IMG/VR virus record: IMGVR_UViG_3300046718_000886
Location: 1-33,558 of that record
Direction: 5' to 3' (one strand)
Source of the DNA: a virus
DNA: 33,558 bases
This document shows, piece by piece, positions 4,557-18,509 of this stretch (its first letter is position 1; every line of letters starts with the position of its first letter). A program made the position numbers and the translations under genes. The notes below the pieces were generated by a model. That model was not told the DNA's origin. It did no database searches and saw nothing but the letters and a program-made list of their open reading frames with translations.

Positions 4557-4764
4557 TATTATCCTCGGGGGCGGGCGTAATGCTTACGGTCGGCTGTCCC
4601 GCTTTGGCCGTTCCGGTCATTTCTGGCTTTGCATCTCCAGTCTCTGGCTTGGGGGGATGCGCCTTCGCCCAATCGGCTGGATGGACGCTTTGCTTCAGCG
4701 TGCGATATGAGTGCACGAGTGCATGGGTTTCCGCCTCTGCTGGCGTGAGTTTCTTAATGGTCAT
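4510..4764 (-). CDS. Small hydrophilic protein of unknown function (84 aa)
   Basis: The product is 84 residues, with a basic N-terminal helix (MTIKKLTPAEAETHALVHSYRTLKQ) and a Pro/Lys/Glu/Asp-rich, probably disordered tail. No family was recognised. It is the first gene after the terminator that follows the coat gene, and its ATG lies 5 nt after a TAAATA box with no Shine-Dalgarno motif. Its 3' end overlaps the start of the gp4-like gene by 47 nt. Position between coat and head-completion genes suggests a head accessory role, which is inference only. Confidence 0.6.
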   Translation of the reverse strand: MTIKKLTPAEAETHALVHSYRTLKQSVHPADWAKAHPPKPETGDAKPEMTGTAKAGQPTVSITPAPEDNIDDAPRSDTLKPESS

Positions 4765-4775
4765 AAAGCTATTTA
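4765..4775 (-). promoter_or_regulatory. TAAATA box, 5 nt before start 4764
   Basis: Minus strand CG-TAAATA-GCTTT-ATG. It lies directly after the T-tract of the terminator at 4776-4809, so the TAA is not a stop codon of any gene here. This argues that the box starts a new transcript. No Shine-Dalgarno motif is present. Confidence 0.5.
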
Positions 4776-4809
4776 CGAAAAAGAAAGCCCCGAGTGCAGG
4801 CTCGGGGCT
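4776..4809 (-). terminator. Rho-independent terminator after the coat gene
   Basis: On the minus strand AGCCCCGAG pairs with CTCGGGGCT (9 bp, 6-nt loop), followed by TTTCTTTTTCG. It lies 31 nt beyond the coat stop and before the next TAAATA box, a usual place to limit read-through from a highly expressed coat message. Confidence 0.85.
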
Positions 4810-4839
4810 GTAGTTAGATACGTATGATGTGGCGTTGTC

Positions 4840-6069
4840 TCAGGTACTGTCGGCCACAATTACACACCACTCGGCACGGGGTGACGCATATCCGTACAAA
4901 ATATCGGATCGGGTCAACCACTGATCTGTAGTCGTAATGTAATCGCGGATGATACGTATGCTGACACCGTCATACACCTGCCGGCTGCAATCGACCACGG
5001 CGCCGGTGGGCAGATCGAGGTCTGCGGTCGCCAGAGTGAAGGCTTCCTTCAAGAACACAAAGTTCTTGCGATACACCTCGCTCGCCTTGATCGGGCTGGC
5101 CAACGCCGGAGAACCGGAGATCGCCTTGCTGACGGTCTGATACTGCACCGGATTGCCGCCACTCGGCGGGATCAGGGGCGGGTAGATCGACACACTGGTG
5201 GCCGAGGTCGCCGCATTCGCGGTTACAACGAACTGCGCCAACACGCCATTGTCTGCCTTGGTGACACGATTGACGCTATTGACCCCAGCAATGGTAACGA
5301 TGTCACCCTTGGTGAGAGGTCCGGCCAGCGCCGCTGTGGTCAAGGTAAGACCATCCGCCGACACACTCGTCACTGTATTGAGGGTGGAGTAAGCAGCGGT
5401 GGTATGCAGGATCGCGGTTTGGTCCATCCGCCAATCATCAATACCCAAAGCCCGCGTGCCCATGAGGCCCGTGCGCCAACGATCAGAGGTATCGTTGGTA
5501 GGATTGAACAGACCGGTGAAGCCCGCGACGGTGCGGGACTGGGTCAACACGTCGAGGATCGCACAACGCTCACCACGCGGAGCGGAAAGCTGATCGAGCA
5601 CGGCACCCGCCTGTAGCCACGTGGTGGCGGTCGGCGAGATCGTGTTGTTGGAACCATCAACCGCATGCACGATATTCGGCACGCCTTCGACGAGGCTCAT
5701 AACGTCGGTCGCGACAGCCCCGGCCAATGAGTTCATCATGGGGCGTAATATTCTGGTCCCGAAATCACTTAGAGACAAGCTCAAATCGGCAGAGCTAAAG
5801 CTGACGTCAACGCCCTTCTGGGTGGCGACGGTCAACGTGGTGTTGCGCTCGGTGGTGTCCTGCGGCGACGCTGCACTGGCGCCAGAGCGGACGGTATAGT
5901 CATTCGGCAGACGGATGCGCAACGTGGCGCCAATCTTGCCGCCGCCGGTGCGGGCGAACTGCGGATCGTATTGCTTATCGATGGTCTGAAGAAATGCATT
6001 CGAGTTCAAAAACAGACGGAGGGCTTCCCTCGTGATCTGTGAAATAGTGAGCAATGTGTTAGTAGGCAT
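4840..6069 (-). CDS. Major capsid protein, P22 coat (gp5) family
   Basis: This 409-residue protein starts MPTNTLLTISQITREALRLF, a close fit to the N-terminal helix of the P22 gp5 coat family (P22 coat is 430 residues). Other family-like segments are FARTGGGKIGATLRIRLPNDYTVRSGA, an N-arm/E-loop type region, and KGVDVSFSSADLSLSLSDFGTRILRPMMNSLAGAVATDV. It forms the HK97-fold shell. It lies downstream of the scaffold gene, which is the usual P22 order. Its start follows GGGGA 11 nt upstream, in a leader of about 120 nt that begins near a TAAATA box, and its 3' end is followed by a strong terminator. One ATACGTAT site (4952) is read as Ile-Arg-Ile using the rare ATA codon. Confidence 0.88.
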   Translation of the reverse strand: MPTNTLLTISQITREALRLFLNSNAFLQTIDKQYDPQFARTGGGKIGATLRIRLPNDYTVRSGASAASPQDTTERNTTLTVATQKGVDVSFSSADLSLSLSDFGTRILRPMMNSLAGAVATDVMSLVEGVPNIVHAVDGSNNTISPTATTWLQAGAVLDQLSAPRGERCAILDVLTQSRTVAGFTGLFNPTNDTSDRWRTGLMGTRALGIDDWRMDQTAILHTTAAYSTLNTVTSVSADGLTLTTAALAGPLTKGDIVTIAGVNSVNRVTKADNGVLAQFVVTANAATSATSVSIYPPLIPPSGGNPVQYQTVSKAISGSPALASPIKASEVYRKNFVFLKEAFTLATADLDLPTGAVVDCSRQVYDGVSIRIIRDYITTTDQWLTRSDILYGYASPRAEWCVIVADST

Positions 6070-6911: not shown

Positions 6912-7667
6912 TCAATACCCCCGACGCTGACGGTCGCGCTGATTCATCTCTTTCATATATTGATCCAACGGCATGGTCTCCAGGTTCTTCGGCCCAGACG
7001 CCGGCCCTGTGACCGGACGGATCGGCGCTGGCGCCTTGGACACCGGCTTGGGGGAGGTCAGCTTGGCAGCGATCTTGGCGATCTGTACAGCGGTCTTGTG
7101 CACCGGCTGGTTCAGCAACACCTCATATTCGTCGGGATTCTCGGCCAGATAATGCAAAATCTGATGCGGATTGCCGGCGTCTTGGGCGGCCTCGATAATC
7201 ACCGGCGGGACATATTGGCCGGCCATGCTGGACAGTTCCTTGATCTCTTCATCCCATGCCGCCTTGCCATACGTATCCACGCCTTGCTTGTAGATGTCGT
7301 TACACGTGTCAACGAAGACCTTTTGCCGGCTTAGCTGCTCGGCGCGTTCCTGCACCTTGCGATCCAGATCAGCGTCCGGCTCGGCCGGTGGCCGCTCGCC
7401 GCGTAGCTCTTGCAGTTGCGCCTTATACTGTCGCGCCTGCTTTTTCGCCTCCCTCATTTCGTGCGCCATCCGCGCCATGCGCTTGTCAGCGTCCTCCGCC
7501 GGCTCGGCCTCCGCGTCGTCAGTCTTGGTGGTCTCGGTGTCAGCCGGCTCTGTAGCCCCCTCTTGGGGCTCGGTCGGCTCGGTTTGTACGCTGGGTTCGG
7601 TTTCGTCGGGGGAGGGAGTGTTCTCGACCGGGTCGAAGCCGGGCTGTTCGGTGGTAGTCTCAGACAT
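6912..7667 (-). CDS. Capsid scaffolding protein
   Basis: The product is 251 residues. The N-terminal ~75 are very acidic and low complexity (Glu/Thr/Pro/Asp), then comes a basic/acidic coiled coil (KRMARMAHEMREAKKQARQYKAQLQELRGE) and a helical middle, ending in a short basic tail (MNQRDRQRRGY). Acidic disordered N-terminus, coiled coil and basic C-terminal helix is the architecture of P22-like scaffolds, whose C-terminal helix-turn-helix binds coat. It is encoded between portal and coat genes, as in P22. The start at 7667 has a clear GGAG 8-11 nt upstream. P22 gp8 is 303 residues, so this is somewhat short. Assignment rests on composition and gene order. Confidence 0.75.
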   Translation of the reverse strand: MSETTTEQPGFDPVENTPSPDETEPSVQTEPTEPQEGATEPADTETTKTDDAEAEPAEDADKRMARMAHEMREAKKQARQYKAQLQELRGERPPAEPDADLDRKVQERAEQLSRQKVFVDTCNDIYKQGVDTYGKAAWDEEIKELSSMAGQYVPPVIIEAAQDAGNPHQILHYLAENPDEYEVLLNQPVHKTAVQIAKIAAKLTSPKPVSKAPAPIRPVTGPASGPKNLETMPLDQYMKEMNQRDRQRRGY

Positions 7668-11756: not shown

Positions 11757-12141
11757 CGTCGTCTTTCGCCGGCTTTTTGTCGGTCTTCTTGGGGGATTCG
11801 AGGCTTGGTGGGGTCGCTACAGTGCCAAACAGCACCTTGATCTCGCTGATCGGCGGCCGATCGCCGCCGATATGGCCCTCGACCCCCGGTTTGCCCCAGC
11901 CACGGTCTAAAATCGTGCTGGCAGCGGCGACTTTGGCCGCCGCACTGGTTCTCGGGTCATTCATCACGCCAGCCAGCGTGGTGATTGCCGCTTCGGTGTG
12001 CCGTTGCGCCAAATCCCGCAGTTGCGCCGAGTTCAACCGCTGCGGTTCAATATAGTATTCAATCGGCGTGGTCTCGGAAAAGCGGGCCTCGGCGTCATCG
12101 TAATGGCTGTCCAGCACGACCACCGGTTCTTTCTTGTTCAT
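11743..12141 (-). CDS. Putative terminase small subunit
   Basis: The product is 132 residues, with N-terminal charged text, a helical centre (LNSAQLRDLAQRHTEAAITTLAGVMNDP) and the segment AAAKVAAASTILDRGWGKP, a pattern often seen in small terminase-like phage proteins. It ends with a charged Lys/Asp tail. The small subunit recognises pac DNA and hands it to the large subunit. The call depends mainly on its place directly upstream of, and overlapping, the large terminase at the head of the late operon. The start follows a TAAATA box by 5 nt. A ParB-like or regulatory protein is a less likely alternative. Confidence 0.65.
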   Translation of the reverse strand: MNKKEPVVVLDSHYDDAEARFSETTPIEYYIEPQRLNSAQLRDLAQRHTEAAITTLAGVMNDPRTSAAAKVAAASTILDRGWGKPGVEGHIGGDRPPISEIKVLFGTVATPPSLESPKKTDKKPAKDDDAEH

Positions 12142-12177
12142 CGCAGTATTTAGATTACCGGCGGGTAAATATACTTA
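12142..12177. promoter_or_regulatory. Divergent TAAATA boxes between terminase and tail-fibre operons
   Basis: The 36-nt gap holds a minus-strand TAAATA (12152-12147, 5 nt before ATG 12141) and a plus-strand TAAATA (12166-12171, 6 nt before ATG 12178), separated by 13 nt. The gap is too short for two conventional promoters with leaders, yet both divergent operons begin here and neither start has a Shine-Dalgarno motif. This supports overlapping promoters giving nearly leaderless messages. Confidence 0.6.
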
Positions 12178-12942
12178 ATGACCTCCCTGATTCCCTCCCC
12201 CGTTTTGCAATTCCTCGACGGTGACGGCAAACCGTTCGCCGGTGGCTCGATCGCCGTCTATGAACCGGGCACCTTCACCCCGTTATCCACCTACGTAGAC
12301 AGCGGGGGAACAGTACCTAATTCCAATCCGATCGTGTTGGACGCAGATGGCCGCTGCGTGATGTATGGCCATGGCCGCCTGCGCTTGATCCTGTTCGATG
12401 CCGCCGAGAACTTGATCTGGGATGGCGAAACCGCCGCCTATCTGAACGAAGACGTCATCTCGCCGGTGATGCTCCCCGTGGTCGGCGCGGCGACACTCGC
12501 CGAAGCACGTCGGCTTTTAGGAGTTGACGACGCAATCCAGACCGCCGTGGACAATATCGAACTCATGCCGGGACCGGCAGGACCCACGGGCGTTGCGGGA
12601 CCGCAAGGGCCGCAAGGCGTGCCTGGAGGAGACGGCCCACCCGGTAGCAGTGATAATCAAATATCAAAGGGTAATCCCGGTTGGTTATTCATGCCGGACA
12701 CGGGATTCTTACTGCAATTCGGCAATGACGCGACCGATGGCGGTGGGGCCAAGACGGTGCCGTTTCCTCGCGGCTTCACGGCGCTGATCTCAGTGACCGC
12801 CGTGACCGTGGATAATCCGGTCAATATCGTGCTGCGCTGTGCCAATATGACGCCGAACTTTTTCAGCGTGTTCATCGAGGACACCGATAACCACGGTGGC
12901 ATCGGCGCCAAGTTCAATTGGATGGCGGTGGGATACGTATGA
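12178..12942 (+). CDS. Collagen-like tail fibre protein A
   Basis: The product is 254 residues. Residues 1-125 form a domain shared with the next gene (PSPVLQFLDGDGKPFAGG...GTVPNSNPIVLDADGRCVMYGHGRLR..., ending in DDAIQTAVDNIELMPGP). A short collagen-like Gly-x-y stretch follows (GPAGPTGVAGPQGPQGVPGGDGPPG). The C-terminal ~90 residues (FMPDTGFLLQFGNDATDGGGAKTVPFPRGF... IGAKFNWMAVGYV) match the P2/lambda-type tail-fibre tip domain (gp53-like C-terminus). It probably forms a trimeric fibre with the collagen segment as linker. It is the first gene of a four-gene plus operon and starts 6 nt after a TAAATA box. Its stop overlaps the start of fibre B inside an ATACGTAT octamer. Confidence 0.8.
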   Translation: MTSLIPSPVLQFLDGDGKPFAGGSIAVYEPGTFTPLSTYVDSGGTVPNSNPIVLDADGRCVMYGHGRLRLILFDAAENLIWDGETAAYLNEDVISPVMLPVVGAATLAEARRLLGVDDAIQTAVDNIELMPGPAGPTGVAGPQGPQGVPGGDGPPGSSDNQISKGNPGWLFMPDTGFLLQFGNDATDGGGAKTVPFPRGFTALISVTAVTVDNPVNIVLRCANMTPNFFSVFIEDTDNHGGIGAKFNWMAVGYV

Positions 12943-15942: not shown

Positions 15943-16406
15943 GGGTCGAGTTCATACCACGAGAAGCCAACCCCGACATCGACGTTGTCGGTGGAGGCGG
16001 TCGCCGTCACCAAGATCGAATGGCCGGGATCAGCCACCAGCAACAGACTGGAAGTGGACGGCATGGCACTCTGCACCTTGAGGCTGGCGAGGTACTGACC
16101 GAAATCGCTGACCGTGGGATCGGCGCTGACCGACGCCGTGGATGGAGTGGTCGAGCCGATCCGCAGGTTGGATGACACATGCAGGGTACCGGGGCTGGTC
16201 ACGATCGGATTGGCGTAGGCGCTGAGCACGAGATACTGGTTCATCGCCCAACAAAACGAATTGCGAGTGTTCCAACAAATCAGTTTAGTGGTGGCGGTGA
16301 ACAACGCGATCGGCGTCTCGAAGGTGGTGGCGACCATCAAACGACGCGACCATACGTATGATACGCCAGAGGCTTGATAGGGGAGTTGGGGAGGGGAAAT
16401 GATCAT
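15939..16406 (-). CDS. Beta-rich protein of unknown function (155 aa), possibly virion
   Basis: The product is 155 residues, rich in Ser, Thr, Val and Ala, with alternating hydrophobic residues suggesting a beta fold (TLHVSSNLRIGSTTPSTASVSADPTVSDF, HSILVTATASTDNVDVGVGFSWYELDP). Such composition is common in phage decoration and tail proteins, but no family was recognised. It heads a two-gene minus operon and starts 4 nt after a TAAATA box (TAAATA-GGGG-ATG). An ATACGTAT site (16352) lies near the N-terminus, read Tyr-Val. Confidence 0.6.
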   Translation of the reverse strand: MIISPPQLPYQASGVSYVWSRRLMVATTFETPIALFTATTKLICWNTRNSFCWAMNQYLVLSAYANPIVTSPGTLHVSSNLRIGSTTPSTASVSADPTVSDFGQYLASLKVQSAMPSTSSLLLVADPGHSILVTATASTDNVDVGVGFSWYELDP

Positions 16407-16429
16407 CCCCTATTTACCGTAAATACCCG
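16407..16429. promoter_or_regulatory. Back-to-back TAAATA boxes (TATTTACCGTAAATA)
   Basis: The 23-nt gap between divergent starts 16406 and 16430 is almost filled by TATTTACCGTAAATA (16411-16425), an imperfect palindrome with one box per strand. Each box lies exactly 4 nt from its ATG (GGGG on the minus strand, CCCG on the plus strand). No Shine-Dalgarno motif is present on either side. Confidence 0.6.
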
Positions 16430-16636
16430 ATGACCAGCATCGGCGAAGACGTCAGAGATGTCATCAACAAGGTGACCGCGACCTTACCCCCCGCATTCGT
16501 TGCGCTGTTGTTCATCAACCTGCTTTTCATCATGGGGCTGATCTGGTTCGTGCATGACGCCTCGATCGCCCGGATCGATGCGATCAAAGAGATTTTCCAT
16601 ACATGCTCGCAGGCGATCAGCCATCATACCGATTAA
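16430..16636 (+). CDS. Small membrane protein, holin-like (68 aa)
   Basis: The product is 68 residues with a charged N-terminus, one clear membrane segment (FVALLFINLLFIMGLIWFV, about residues 23-41) and a mixed C-terminus (HDASIARIDAIKEIFHTCSQAISHHTD). One-helix phage proteins of this size can be holins or spanin-like inner proteins, but no family was recognised. It is monocistronic, starts 4 nt after a TAAATA box and is followed by a small hairpin. No canonical endolysin gene is adjacent, so the lysis role is only a guess. Confidence 0.6.
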   Translation: MTSIGEDVRDVINKVTATLPPAFVALLFINLLFIMGLIWFVHDASIARIDAIKEIFHTCSQAISHHTD

Positions 16637-16698: not shown

Positions 16699-17049
16699 CT
16701 ACAGAGGAGCGTAGCGGGCGTCTGAGGTGAAGGGGGCCAGCCGGATCGGCCGGCGGCCAAACTCATGAATCGTCAGACCGGCCAAACGATGCAATGACGG
16801 GCCAAAGAACAAGCGTTGGCCGCCCGGACTATACGCCTCCCAAGGTTGCTCGGGACAGCCAGCCGCCACCAATTTGCGGGCCAACGCCATCGACGAACCA
16901 TGCGTCGAGGTAGCGATGAATTGTTGGTCCTGCCATGTCGCGGTGGCTTGGTCATAGATCGGCTTATTCGGAGTCTTATGCGGCGGTAGGGGGGTGACGG
17001 TCATATGTATGGACATGCAGAATTGTTGGCTGGAAACTTGGTGTTTCAT
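16699..17049 (-). CDS. Protein of unknown function (116 aa from the chosen start)
   Basis: From ATG 17049 the product is 116 residues (MKHQVSSQQFCMSIHMTVTPLPPHKTPNKPIYDQ..., later HGSSMALARKLVAAGCPEQPWEAYSPGGQRLFFGPSLHRLAGLTIHEFG). The second half looks globular, the first linker-like. No family was recognised. The frame is open to 17109; 17064 and 17004 (MTVTPLPPH) are other possible starts. I chose 17049 because it overlaps, as ATGA, the stop of a 24-codon ORF that begins just after a TAAATC box. It is the last of three small minus-strand genes, each preceded by a related repeat. Confidence 0.5.
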   Translation of the reverse strand: MKHQVSSQQFCMSIHMTVTPLPPHKTPNKPIYDQATATWQDQQFIATSTHGSSMALARKLVAAGCPEQPWEAYSPGGQRLFFGPSLHRLAGLTIHEFGRRPIRLAPFTSDARYAPL

Positions 17050-17120
17050 GCGGCATCGTTCCATCGAGGAGGTAGTCGTGTCCGGCGATCTCCGCCGGTA
17101 CCATGCCAAATCCCCAGCAT
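17046..17120 (-). CDS. Possible 24-codon leader ORF
   Basis: An ATG at 17120 lies 4 nt after a TAAATC box (one base from the genome motif) and opens a frame MLGIWHGTGGDRRTRLPPRW... that stops at TGA 17046, overlapping the next ATG as ATGA. The arrangement suggests a leaderless mini-ORF that delivers ribosomes to the 17049 start. Length alone gives no coding support. Confidence 0.25.
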   Translation of the reverse strand: MLGIWHGTGGDRRTRLPPRWNDAA

Positions 17121-17127
17121 TATGGAT

Positions 17128-17397
17128 TTATCGTCCTAGGATGGTCGGCGATAAAACCGGTCGCCATTTCGGGAACTCGGTCAAATCACTCGATGAGTGA
17201 CCGCCCCATGCCACCATGAACTTGAACGCATCCATCTCATGCAACAGCAACAACATGCGGCGCATGTATCGGCCTTCCACAATACTTGTTTCGGTATATG
17301 GTTGCCATTCCCCCTCGAATTGATCCTCACACCATGTCAAAATGACATGCCAATCAACCGGTCCAGTATATTCCAGACAGTGCGGATGTGATACCAT
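17128..17397 (-). CDS. Small protein of unknown function (89 aa)
   Basis: The product is 89 residues (MVSHPHCLEYTGPVDWHVILTWCEDQFEGEWQPYTETSIVEGRYMRRMLLLLHEMDAFKFMVAWGG...), with many Trp and acidic residues and a helical middle. No family was recognised. An AGGATGGG motif 10-17 nt upstream may serve as ribosome binding site. Its last residues (VLSPTILGR) are encoded by repeat copy R1, so the repeat overlaps the coding end. It is the middle gene of a three-gene minus cluster. Confidence 0.5.
   Translation of the reverse strand: MVSHPHCLEYTGPVDWHVILTWCEDQFEGEWQPYTETSIVEGRYMRRMLLLLHEMDAFKFMVAWGGHSSSDLTEFPKWRPVLSPTILGR
17134..17163 (-). repeat. CCTAGG-TTTTATCG repeat, copy R1
   Basis: Minus strand GGTTTTATCGCCGACCA, then TCCTAGGA, then a TAAATC box and ATG 17120. 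It lacks three bases present in R2 and R3 (the TTT of GGATTTTGG on the plus strand), but the distance from TTTTATCGC to the box is 17 nt against 18 nt in R3. Confidence 0.7.
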
Positions 17398-17408
17398 TCA
17401 GGAAACCC

Positions 17409-17440
17409 ATCCTAGGATTTTGGTCGGCGATAAAACCGGT
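17409..17440 (-). repeat. CCTAGG-TTTTATCG repeat, copy R2
   Basis: Minus strand ACCGGTTTTATCGCCGACCA then AAATCCTAGGAT, followed by GGGTTTCCTGA and ATG 17397. No TAAATA box follows this copy. It overlaps the 3' end of the 17412-17600 gene. Confidence 0.7.
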
Positions 17441-17600
17441 GGTCGGTCTGAATACCGCGAATGATCCACAGCATGAAGGCAATGAGCAGGACCAGTGACA
17501 AAAAACCGCTCGGCAGTGCGTGGATGAGAGTGCCACCCAGTTTGGTGGCAGAGCCGAGCATCGATCGGTTGTAGCCATTGCCGTTGTCATGGTCGGACAT
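17412..17600 (-). CDS. Small single-span membrane protein (62 aa)
   Basis: The product is 62 residues (MSDHDNGNGYNRSMLGSATK...), with a polar N-terminus, one membrane helix (GFLSLVLLIAFMLWIIRGI, about residues 32-50) and a basic tail (TDHRFYRRPKS). The charge pattern predicts the N-terminus outside and the C-terminus in the cytoplasm, though this is weak. It could be a holin or antiholin, or a superinfection-exclusion protein; no family was recognised. Its ATG lies 5 nt after TTAAATA, within repeat cassette R3. The final residues are encoded by repeat R2. Confidence 0.6.
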   Translation of the reverse strand: MSDHDNGNGYNRSMLGSATKLGGTLIHALPSGFLSLVLLIAFMLWIIRGIQTDHRFYRRPKS

Positions 17601-17640
17601 ACAGGTATTTAATCCTAGGATTTTGCTCCGCGATAAAACC
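17601..17640 (-). promoter_or_regulatory. Repeat copy R3 with TAAATA box before start 17600
   Basis: Minus strand GGTTTTATCGCGGAGCAAAA, TCCTAGGAT, TAAATA, CCTGT, ATG. TTTTATCGC lies 18 nt before the TAAATA, a spacing usual for -35/-10 pairs. Copy R1 keeps nearly the same spacing despite a deletion, which suggests that the two parts work together as a promoter or operator. Confidence 0.5.
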
Positions 17641-18045
17641 ACTAGGGCGCGGTCCGGATCGTCTCATAATCTAGACATTTTACTTTCAAGCCGGTCTGCC
17701 ATACCGTTTTAACATGGCTGGCCATGCCGAGGTGGCCTACTACTATAGGTGGTATGGCGCTGTTAGTGCAGATCGACCATCCGCACTAGCACCTCGTAAC
17801 TCCTTGATAACGCTCACTAACCGATACGCTACCCGTATCCCTACCCGTATGACCGACCGACCGAGGTGACGGTCTGCAACTAACGGTTGTGCGATACGCT
17901 ATTATCGCATGGCTGGTATGCACTACATGTTGTGTCATATCGGTTCGAGAACGTCTATATTTAGAGACGCGTGAATGGCCGATCAAAGAGGAAAATATGC
18001 CCTCTAGTTTTCAGCTAGTGAAATTCGAGGTGTAGGCGCAGTTTC
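17641..18045. other. Hairpin-rich non-coding stretch (about 400 nt)
   Basis: No confident gene was found. The stretch is dense in short inverted repeats: TAGTGC/GCACTA (17764-17788), GATACG-CTACC-CGTATC (17823-17839), TGCGATA-CGCTAT-TATCGCA (17890-17909), CGTCT/AGACG around a TAAATA (17952-17968), and GCCATACC/GGTATGGC enclosing 17698-17758. It also holds a tandem decamer CTACCCGTAT twice, 12 bp apart (17829-17850). A 50-codon minus frame (17938-17786, MTQHVVHTSHAII...) begins 19 nt after the TAAATA but has no coding support. A structured RNA, an operator or an attachment region are possible. No tRNA could be folded. Confidence 0.4.
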
Positions 18046-18222
18046 CTAGCCTAATGAGCGTATCCGCGCATTGAAATACTGGCCCTTCGAGCTAGCTGCA
18101 TCAAGACCATCGGCGAGGTCCTGATCAACGTTGGTATACGTATGGCTGCCGCCCTTCACGAAATAGATCGTCAGGCTCTTGGTGGTCGGCTCATACGTAT
18201 AATCCGCAACACAGGTGCTCAT
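18046..18222 (-). CDS. KTSC domain protein (58 aa)
   Basis: The 58-residue product MSTCVADYTYEPTTKSLTIYFVKGGSHTYTNVDQDLADGLDAASSKGQYFNARIRSLG matches the KTSC domain: Y-x(5-7)-L-x-V/I-x-F-x-x-G-x-x-Y-x-Y-x-x-V, then A-x-S-x-G-x-x-F-N-x-x-I-R. KTSC domains occur alone in many phages and at the C-terminus of some lysyl-tRNA synthetases; their function is not established. The ATG overlaps the upstream stop as ATGA. Two ATACGTAT sites (18136 and 18193, 57 bp apart) lie within this very short gene, both read with ACG TAT as Thr-Tyr. Confidence 0.8.
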   Translation of the reverse strand: MSTCVADYTYEPTTKSLTIYFVKGGSHTYTNVDQDLADGLDAASSKGQYFNARIRSLG

Positions 18223-18509
18223 CGCACTGAGGACCAACGATCATTCGGACTTGTCCATTGTCCAGCCGTCGCCTCTTCGCGCCGGCCATCGCAGACCAGA
18301 CAGTACTGCCCGGCGCCATGCTCACCATCACAATAGTCGCGCATGAGCCGGTGCGTGCGTAGCTGATCGAGATATAGCTCCCACGACCGATACCAATCCC
18401 TCGGCGGCAGGGTGTCGCGATGGGCGTTGTCCCAGTCGAGGATGTAGCGGCGTACCGCCGCCGTATCTGTTTGATCCAAATCTTTTGGTATCGAACTCAT
18501 ATGCATCAC
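18219..18509 (-). CDS. Small Trp/Arg-rich protein of unknown function (96 aa)
   Basis: The product is 96 residues from GTG 18509 (93 from ATG 18500). It has a helical first half (AVRRYILDWDNAHRDTLPPRDWYRSWELYLDQLRTHRLMRDY) and then C-D-G-E-H-G-A-G-Q-Y-C-L-V-C, which could bind a metal through Cys/His. No family was recognised. It overlaps its upstream neighbour as GTGA and its downstream neighbour (KTSC) as ATGA, so it is the middle gene of a coupled accessory operon. Confidence 0.6.
   Translation of the reverse strand: MMHMSSIPKDLDQTDTAAVRRYILDWDNAHRDTLPPRDWYRSWELYLDQLRTHRLMRDYCDGEHGAGQYCLVCDGRREEATAGQWTSPNDRWSSVR

Follow-up and report, generated by a model that had tools for sequence, protein, structure and literature searches.

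The R element is a short two-part repeat lying directly before the start codons of small genes in a phage genome. It is read here as a clade-specific, mobile, start-proximal regulatory cassette, probably a promoter or operator placed beside possibly leaderless starts; this function is deduced from sequence, and the reading is given a probability of about 0.45, that is, somewhat below an even chance. The window, i.e., the whole stretch of DNA that was analysed, comprises the 33,558 bases of virus record IMGVR_UViG_3300046718_000886. It looks like the genome of a temperate phage of the podovirus type, and it encodes a P22-like portal, a terminase, a family A DNA polymerase and a tyrosine integrase. 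The closest relatives known are a pair of uncultivated contigs, L004 (21.3 kb, terminase 98% identical) and L005 (11.1 kb, 100% identical over the matched part); the next best stands at 54%. A TerL search against prophages in bacterial genomes returned nine relatives at 30–50% identity, none of them close.

R is composed of GGTTTTATCGC, a gap of 9, 9 or 6 nt, and TCCTAGGA, and its three copies are all located on the minus strand. R1 (17613..17640, 9-nt gap) occupies −40 to −13 from the ATG of gene A, R2 (17410..17437, 9-nt gap) occupies −40 to −13 from the ATG of gene B, and R3 (17134..17158, 6-nt gap) occupies −38 to −14 from the ATG of ORF C0. In the whole window, exact GGTTTTATCGC is present only at 17148-17158, 17427-17437 and 17630-17640 (minus strand) and exact TCCTAGGA only at 17134, 17410 and 17613; the joint pattern of the two halves gives three matches on one strand and none in the reversed control. 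That is to say, the three-copy repeat noticed in the sequence-only reading is real. Of its positions, 17134 was correct and the other two were off by one (17410 and 17613 are the right values, with the copies on the minus strand), and the gap of 8–11 nt given there has to be replaced by 9, 9 and 6 nt. The TCCTAGGA half spans −20 to −13 before A and B and −21 to −14 before C0; although R3 is 3 nt shorter internally, its first half starts at −38, close to the −40 of the other two. Of the three copies, R2 and R3 resemble each other most, with 20 of 20 bases shared from ACCGG to GACCA, against 80% for R1. As had also been noticed earlier, two copies encode the ends of the genes upstream of them: R2 contributes the last residues and the stop of gene A, whose TAG lies inside TCCTAGGA, and R3 encodes the end of gene B, whose stop codon is the TAA of a TAAATC (17125..17130, minus strand).

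The case for R rests on these three exact joint copies. Taken singly, TCCTAGGA shows no enrichment when one mismatch is allowed (5 found, 7.07 expected); GGTTTTATCGC with two mismatches is enriched (14 found, 7.44 expected), a count of 14 being reached in 0 of 100 shuffles. Mismatched R halves elsewhere in the window and its relatives stay at shuffle level, and an R-like stretch at 16830 of L004, which follows the capsid gene and adjoins an inserted HNH-type gene, was likewise a shuffle-level match and was not counted. The exact 29-base R pattern gave no match in the viral contigs; a relaxed pattern gave 11 stretches in the viral collection (raw count), one in the L004 contig and ten in other sequence contexts, and the DNA of the R region had no match in the phage and plasmid collections. 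R3 alone has a clear inverted partner (GGTTTTATCG / CGATAAATCC, the partner at 17124), which by reading is absent at R1 and R2. No RNA hairpin common to the copies was found, the folds of R1, R2, R3 and the L004 copy being different; this removes one mechanism and does not prove a mechanism at the DNA level.

The genes beside R are small. Gene A (17412..17600, minus strand) encodes a small protein of 62 aa with one hydrophobic stretch, holin-like by inspection. Gene B (17128..17397, minus strand, 89 aa) is a near-orphan with short weak matches only, in L106-L108, and its own-frame coding score is the highest of the six frames. ORF C0 (17046..17120, minus strand) has 24 codons, and its stop codon shares bases with the ATG of gene C (ATGA). 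Gene C (16699..17049, minus strand, 116 aa) has an alternative TTG start at 17109 and one relative, in L105 (55% over residues 33–115), where there is no R element. ORF H (16430..16636, plus strand, 68 aa) is inverted and divergent from the gene starting at 16406, and its layout is like that of the L004 gene A, with one hydrophobic stretch and RI-A and C-A motifs near the end; no blastp similarity was found between gene A and ORF H. Genes A, B and C and ORF H score as coding in their own frames. The own-frame score of C0 is not its best and its coding status is doubtful, so that the start of gene C and the third spacing of R are uncertain, and the dependence of this third spacing on a doubtful start codon counts against the cassette reading. 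Searches of Pfam and PHROGs gave no family for A, B or C, and the proteins A (from L004), B and C had no match among phages. Since the A, B and C proteins have no mutual similarity beyond chance (best cross-match E 0.16), R is not merely part of a duplicated gene, in keeping with the earlier reading.

The comparison with L004 bears on the history of the repeat. L004 has a single R copy (6978-7005), identical to R1 at 27 of 28 bases and located at −40 of its gene A, and R2, R3 and genes B and C are absent from it. The search of related genomes, which the sequence-only reading had proposed, thus recovered one copy in L004 and no R in the other three of the four related records; the R region falls outside the coverage of L005, and R2 and R3 are known from a single genome, the window. 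The segment absent from L004 (16420..17441, about 1.0 kb) carries R2, B, R3, C and the inverted ORF H, and its counterpart in L004 is about 0.1 kb encoding the C-terminal part of gene A. Gene A of the window and its 78-aa L004 orthologue are homologous through residue 53 (83% identity), and the window protein is truncated at the C-terminus. Its last nine residues, HRFYRRPKS, are made of the junction and R2, nearly all of R2, which starts 5 nt beyond the final codon of the homologous part, i.e., at the breakpoint with L004. Because R2 stands at this breakpoint and encodes the new tail of gene A, the gene ends once described as adapted to the repeats are better read as a truncation scar. The simplest history would be an insertion that truncated gene A; this direction, insertion rather than loss in L004, is what we infer from a comparison of two genomes. 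ORF H may be a replacement of the truncated gene A. Elsewhere in L004 (16876-17637), an inserted gene that looks, by inspection of its translation, like an HNH-type endonuclease separates the capsid gene from the gene following it; it is absent from the window.

A second element, TAAATA, is the top hexamer ahead of ATG starts, in the window as well as in L004. Of its 15 occurrences in the window, 11 stand 3–7 nt ahead of an ATG that opens an ORF of 40 aa or more; the sites placed 3–6 nt before an ATG are 4775−, 6221+, 8023−, 12152−, 12166+, 16416−, 16420+, 17611−, 19639−, 19930− and 29890−. The spacing of 3–7 nt is also found for 7 of 10 sites in L004 and 3 of 6 in L005, with shuffle means of 0.05 (window), 0 (L004) and 0 (L005). 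The survey took in 90 sequences (the window, L004-L083 and L096-L104), of which those below 7000 bases were dropped to leave 51 rows; among the 48 loci outside the clade (at least 7 kb), the highest count of spaced sites was 3 of 24 (L078). Among the starts that bear TAAATA are those of TerS and the divergent fib1, of the pair 16406/16430, of gene A (17606..17611, minus strand, at −11 to −6) and of gene 4764, and at orthologous starts it stays as the flanking bases change. TAAATC stands at −10 to −5 of C0, and at R2 both hexamers are missing. TAAATA is a separate, phage-wide, clade-specific start element and not part of the R cassette. It is possibly the −10 box of leaderless genes. In the list that was checked, the TAAATA genes of the window have no Shine-Dalgarno match closer than −12. 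Inspection by eye shows no −35 box shared by the TAAATA sites. A −10 box of leaderless transcripts and a translation signal cannot be told apart by sequence. In two divergent gene pairs, 12141-12178 and 16406-16430, the start codons are about 36 and 23 bp apart with TAAATA at each start, and the latter pair is centred on the near-palindrome TATTTACCGTAAATA. At 4740-4840 (minus strand), roughly a dozen bases separate the end of a terminator-like hairpin from the ATG at 4764 that TAAATA marks, a layout that is also present in L004 and L005.

In the preferred reading, R would act directly upstream of start codons and most likely in transcription. The promoter or operator region would cover about −40 to −13 of leaderless or nearly leaderless starts, which would take in the −35 position and the spacer, and a protein-binding site there would be an activator site, an operator or an unusual promoter half. 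The phage-wide start element (TAAATA at A, TAAATC at C0) would occupy the place of the −10 box beside R. R1 before gene A would be the copy common to the window and L004, and R2 and R3 would have come with the segment bringing B, C and the inverted ORF H; this segment would have removed the 3′ end of gene A, and each new gene would have been placed behind its own R copy. Of the earlier proposal of a two-part promoter or operator moved by duplication, the part that is supported is a start-proximal element at near-constant distance before unrelated genes, with additional copies where the extra genes are. The two-part promoter as proposed is not supported: the spacing of 18 and 17 nt to TAAATA/TAAATC holds for A and C0, but R2 is without such a box, TAAATA occurs without TTTTATCGC, and no sigma-70 site lies at the copies. 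In the consensus scan (−35 and −10 hexamers at 16–18 nt), no site overlapped any R copy. This result speaks against a promoter role, as do the box missing at B and the fact that no candidate regulator for R was identified.

Several other explanations have to be weighed. R might be a translation-initiation element, with TCCTAGGA supplying a Shine-Dalgarno-like AGGA and R tuning how A, B and C are initiated on a single long transcript. All copies are indeed start-proximal, two of them overlap the end of the upstream gene like the internal signals of an operon, and AGGA is present in all three at nearly equal distance. However, AGGA ends 13–14 nt before the ATG, compared with 6–8 nt at the clearest ribosome sites of the phage (AGGAG, AAGGAG, GAGGTGA, GGAG), and a plain ribosome-binding role is therefore less likely; moreover, the conserved GGTTTTATCGC half would have no role in pairing with 16S rRNA, and the absence of a shared hairpin also weighs against a translational role, which is rather unlikely. 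A recombination footprint, in which R would be a mere boundary repeat for the gain and loss of small genes and any control role would be incidental, agrees with the position of R2 at the L004 breakpoint, with the flanking of gene B by R2 and R3, and with a published parallel, a Corndog gene with a flanking 17-bp direct repeat (PMC4351075). Exchange at repeats leaves the constant distance to three start codons unexplained, though, and gives no account of why gene A was kept truncated rather than cleanly replaced, so that as a full explanation it is unlikely; a recombination role is compatible with the regulatory one and may be additional to it.

The DNA upstream of gene A suggests one more candidate. 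About 300 nt of non-coding DNA (17605..17905, minus strand) end in R1 and are about 96% identical to L004 between flanks of 58–79%, and R1 could be the tail of a structured leader RNA of this length, of which R2 and R3 would be copied remnants. The block folds better than its shuffles (z −2.69 in the window, −2.54 in L004), and one A-U to G-C double change preserves a stem. Yet the pairs of the window fold are kept at 90 of 96, no better than with randomly placed substitutions (P 0.49), and the structured RNA was rejected as a candidate, its overall pair conservation not exceeding random placement in spite of that one compensatory change. The R1 hairpin is formed by neither R2 nor R3. An Rfam search of 17000-18300 gave only two matches, far below the gathering scores and to eukaryotic snoRNA families, which were discarded, and no tRNA or tmRNA was found. 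Since other L004/window alignment blocks are as similar, recent common ancestry may suffice for the identity of the block. A leader RNA is very unlikely. A 19-mer from the block also matches L111 in an unrelated context. Least probable is coincidental or simply tandem-duplicated DNA without function: there are three copies in only one genome and short duplications are common, but exact 11- and 8-base halves stand at a constant distance from three starts amid diverged DNA, and R1 is kept in L004.

With regard to known systems, Arbiol et al. are said to have described in 2010 mobile early-promoter cassettes of T4-type phages, reportedly consisting of a host-type promoter and a stem-loop. These resemble R in being regulatory cassettes that multiply with inserted small genes, and they differ in the host-type promoter and the stem-loop, which were not found at R. 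The T4 late promoter is TATAAATA and the cyanophage counterpart is NATAAATA, and they too have a TAAATA core as the sole conserved box with no −35 box apparent (PMC2984593); in contrast to TATAAATA, the two bases before TAAATA (TA) are not conserved in the window. Among the window ORFs whose proteins were searched, no sigma factor was found and no gp55-like or RNA polymerase gene was seen.

The closest layout is that of the start-associated repeats (SAS) of Cluster K mycobacteriophages, 13-bp repeats of which some have an extended inverted repeat; the authors did not settle what they do and discussed roles in translation or as promoter or operator (PMC3203893), and a 2025 paper still describes their function as needing experiments (PMC12699233). 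The SAS resemble R as short asymmetric repeats immediately before some start codons of unrelated genes, mostly in one orientation, within which the stop codons of upstream genes may lie and beside some of which stands a second, longer element. R likewise stands directly before the starts of unrelated genes in one orientation, the third case depending on the doubtful C0. The SAS differ in being GGGATAGGAGCCC, in having 11–19 copies per genome and in containing a proper AGGAG, whereas in the window the short element is TAAATA, R has three copies, and its AGGA is too far from the ATG. By reading, the 13-bp GGGATAGGAGCCC consensus with up to two mismatches is not contained in the three R copies or the TAAATA sites, and the pair of imperfect 17-bp inverted repeats of the extended SAS is absent at R1 and R2, only R3 having an inverted partner; there is no sequence relation, and the phages belong to another group. 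In Cluster O, relatives have one copy of the repeat that flanks the Corndog gene; divergent leaderless promoters were also predicted, and a 17-bp palindrome is present in more than 30 copies (PMC4351075). The likeness lies in a repeat that occurs twice around an extra gene but once in relatives, and in divergent genes that lie close together and would be transcribed from their very start codons; the difference is that SigA promoters were predicted there from sequence, and no sigma-70 consensus is found at the window repeats. By analogy, the window case appears like Clusters K and O in layout without shared sequence, a variant rather than a member.

Phages constantly gain small genes, and the capture of such newcomers by phage control is rarely visible. 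Here, one close genome pair shows the one-copy state on one side and three copies with new genes on the other, and because both states can be seen, the idea that the cassette travels with the genes is directly testable. A wider scenario, which is quite unlikely as it stands, is that the clade starts many genes as leaderless mRNAs from a TAAATA-only minimal promoter read by a putative sigma-like or activator protein, R being an add-on control site gained with small-gene insertions. If that were true, inserted genes would arrive already wired into the phage programme. The strict distance between TAAATA and ATG amounts to a clear prediction of leaderless transcripts.

Besides these elements, the 8-base palindrome ATACGTAT is iterated along the genome: the window (33.5 kb) has 24 sites, L004 (21.3 kb) has 16 and L005 (11.1 kb) has 8. 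The runner-up among the 8-base palindromes of the window has 6. Counted on both strands, its 48 occurrences (24 sites, each on both strands) compare with a first-order expectation of 0.38, an excess of more than 100-fold, and coding and non-coding DNA alike carry about 0.7 sites per kb (e.g., at 998, 4818, 12933, 16352, 19425 and 29987). As a host marker, ATACGTAT showed no comparable density among 9 genomes or among 289 of an alphaproteobacterial class sample, nor, together with CATACGTATG, among 114 genomes of another class. In this it is like the highly iterated palindromes of cyanobacteria, for which a link to DNA methyltransferases has been described (PMC4390886).
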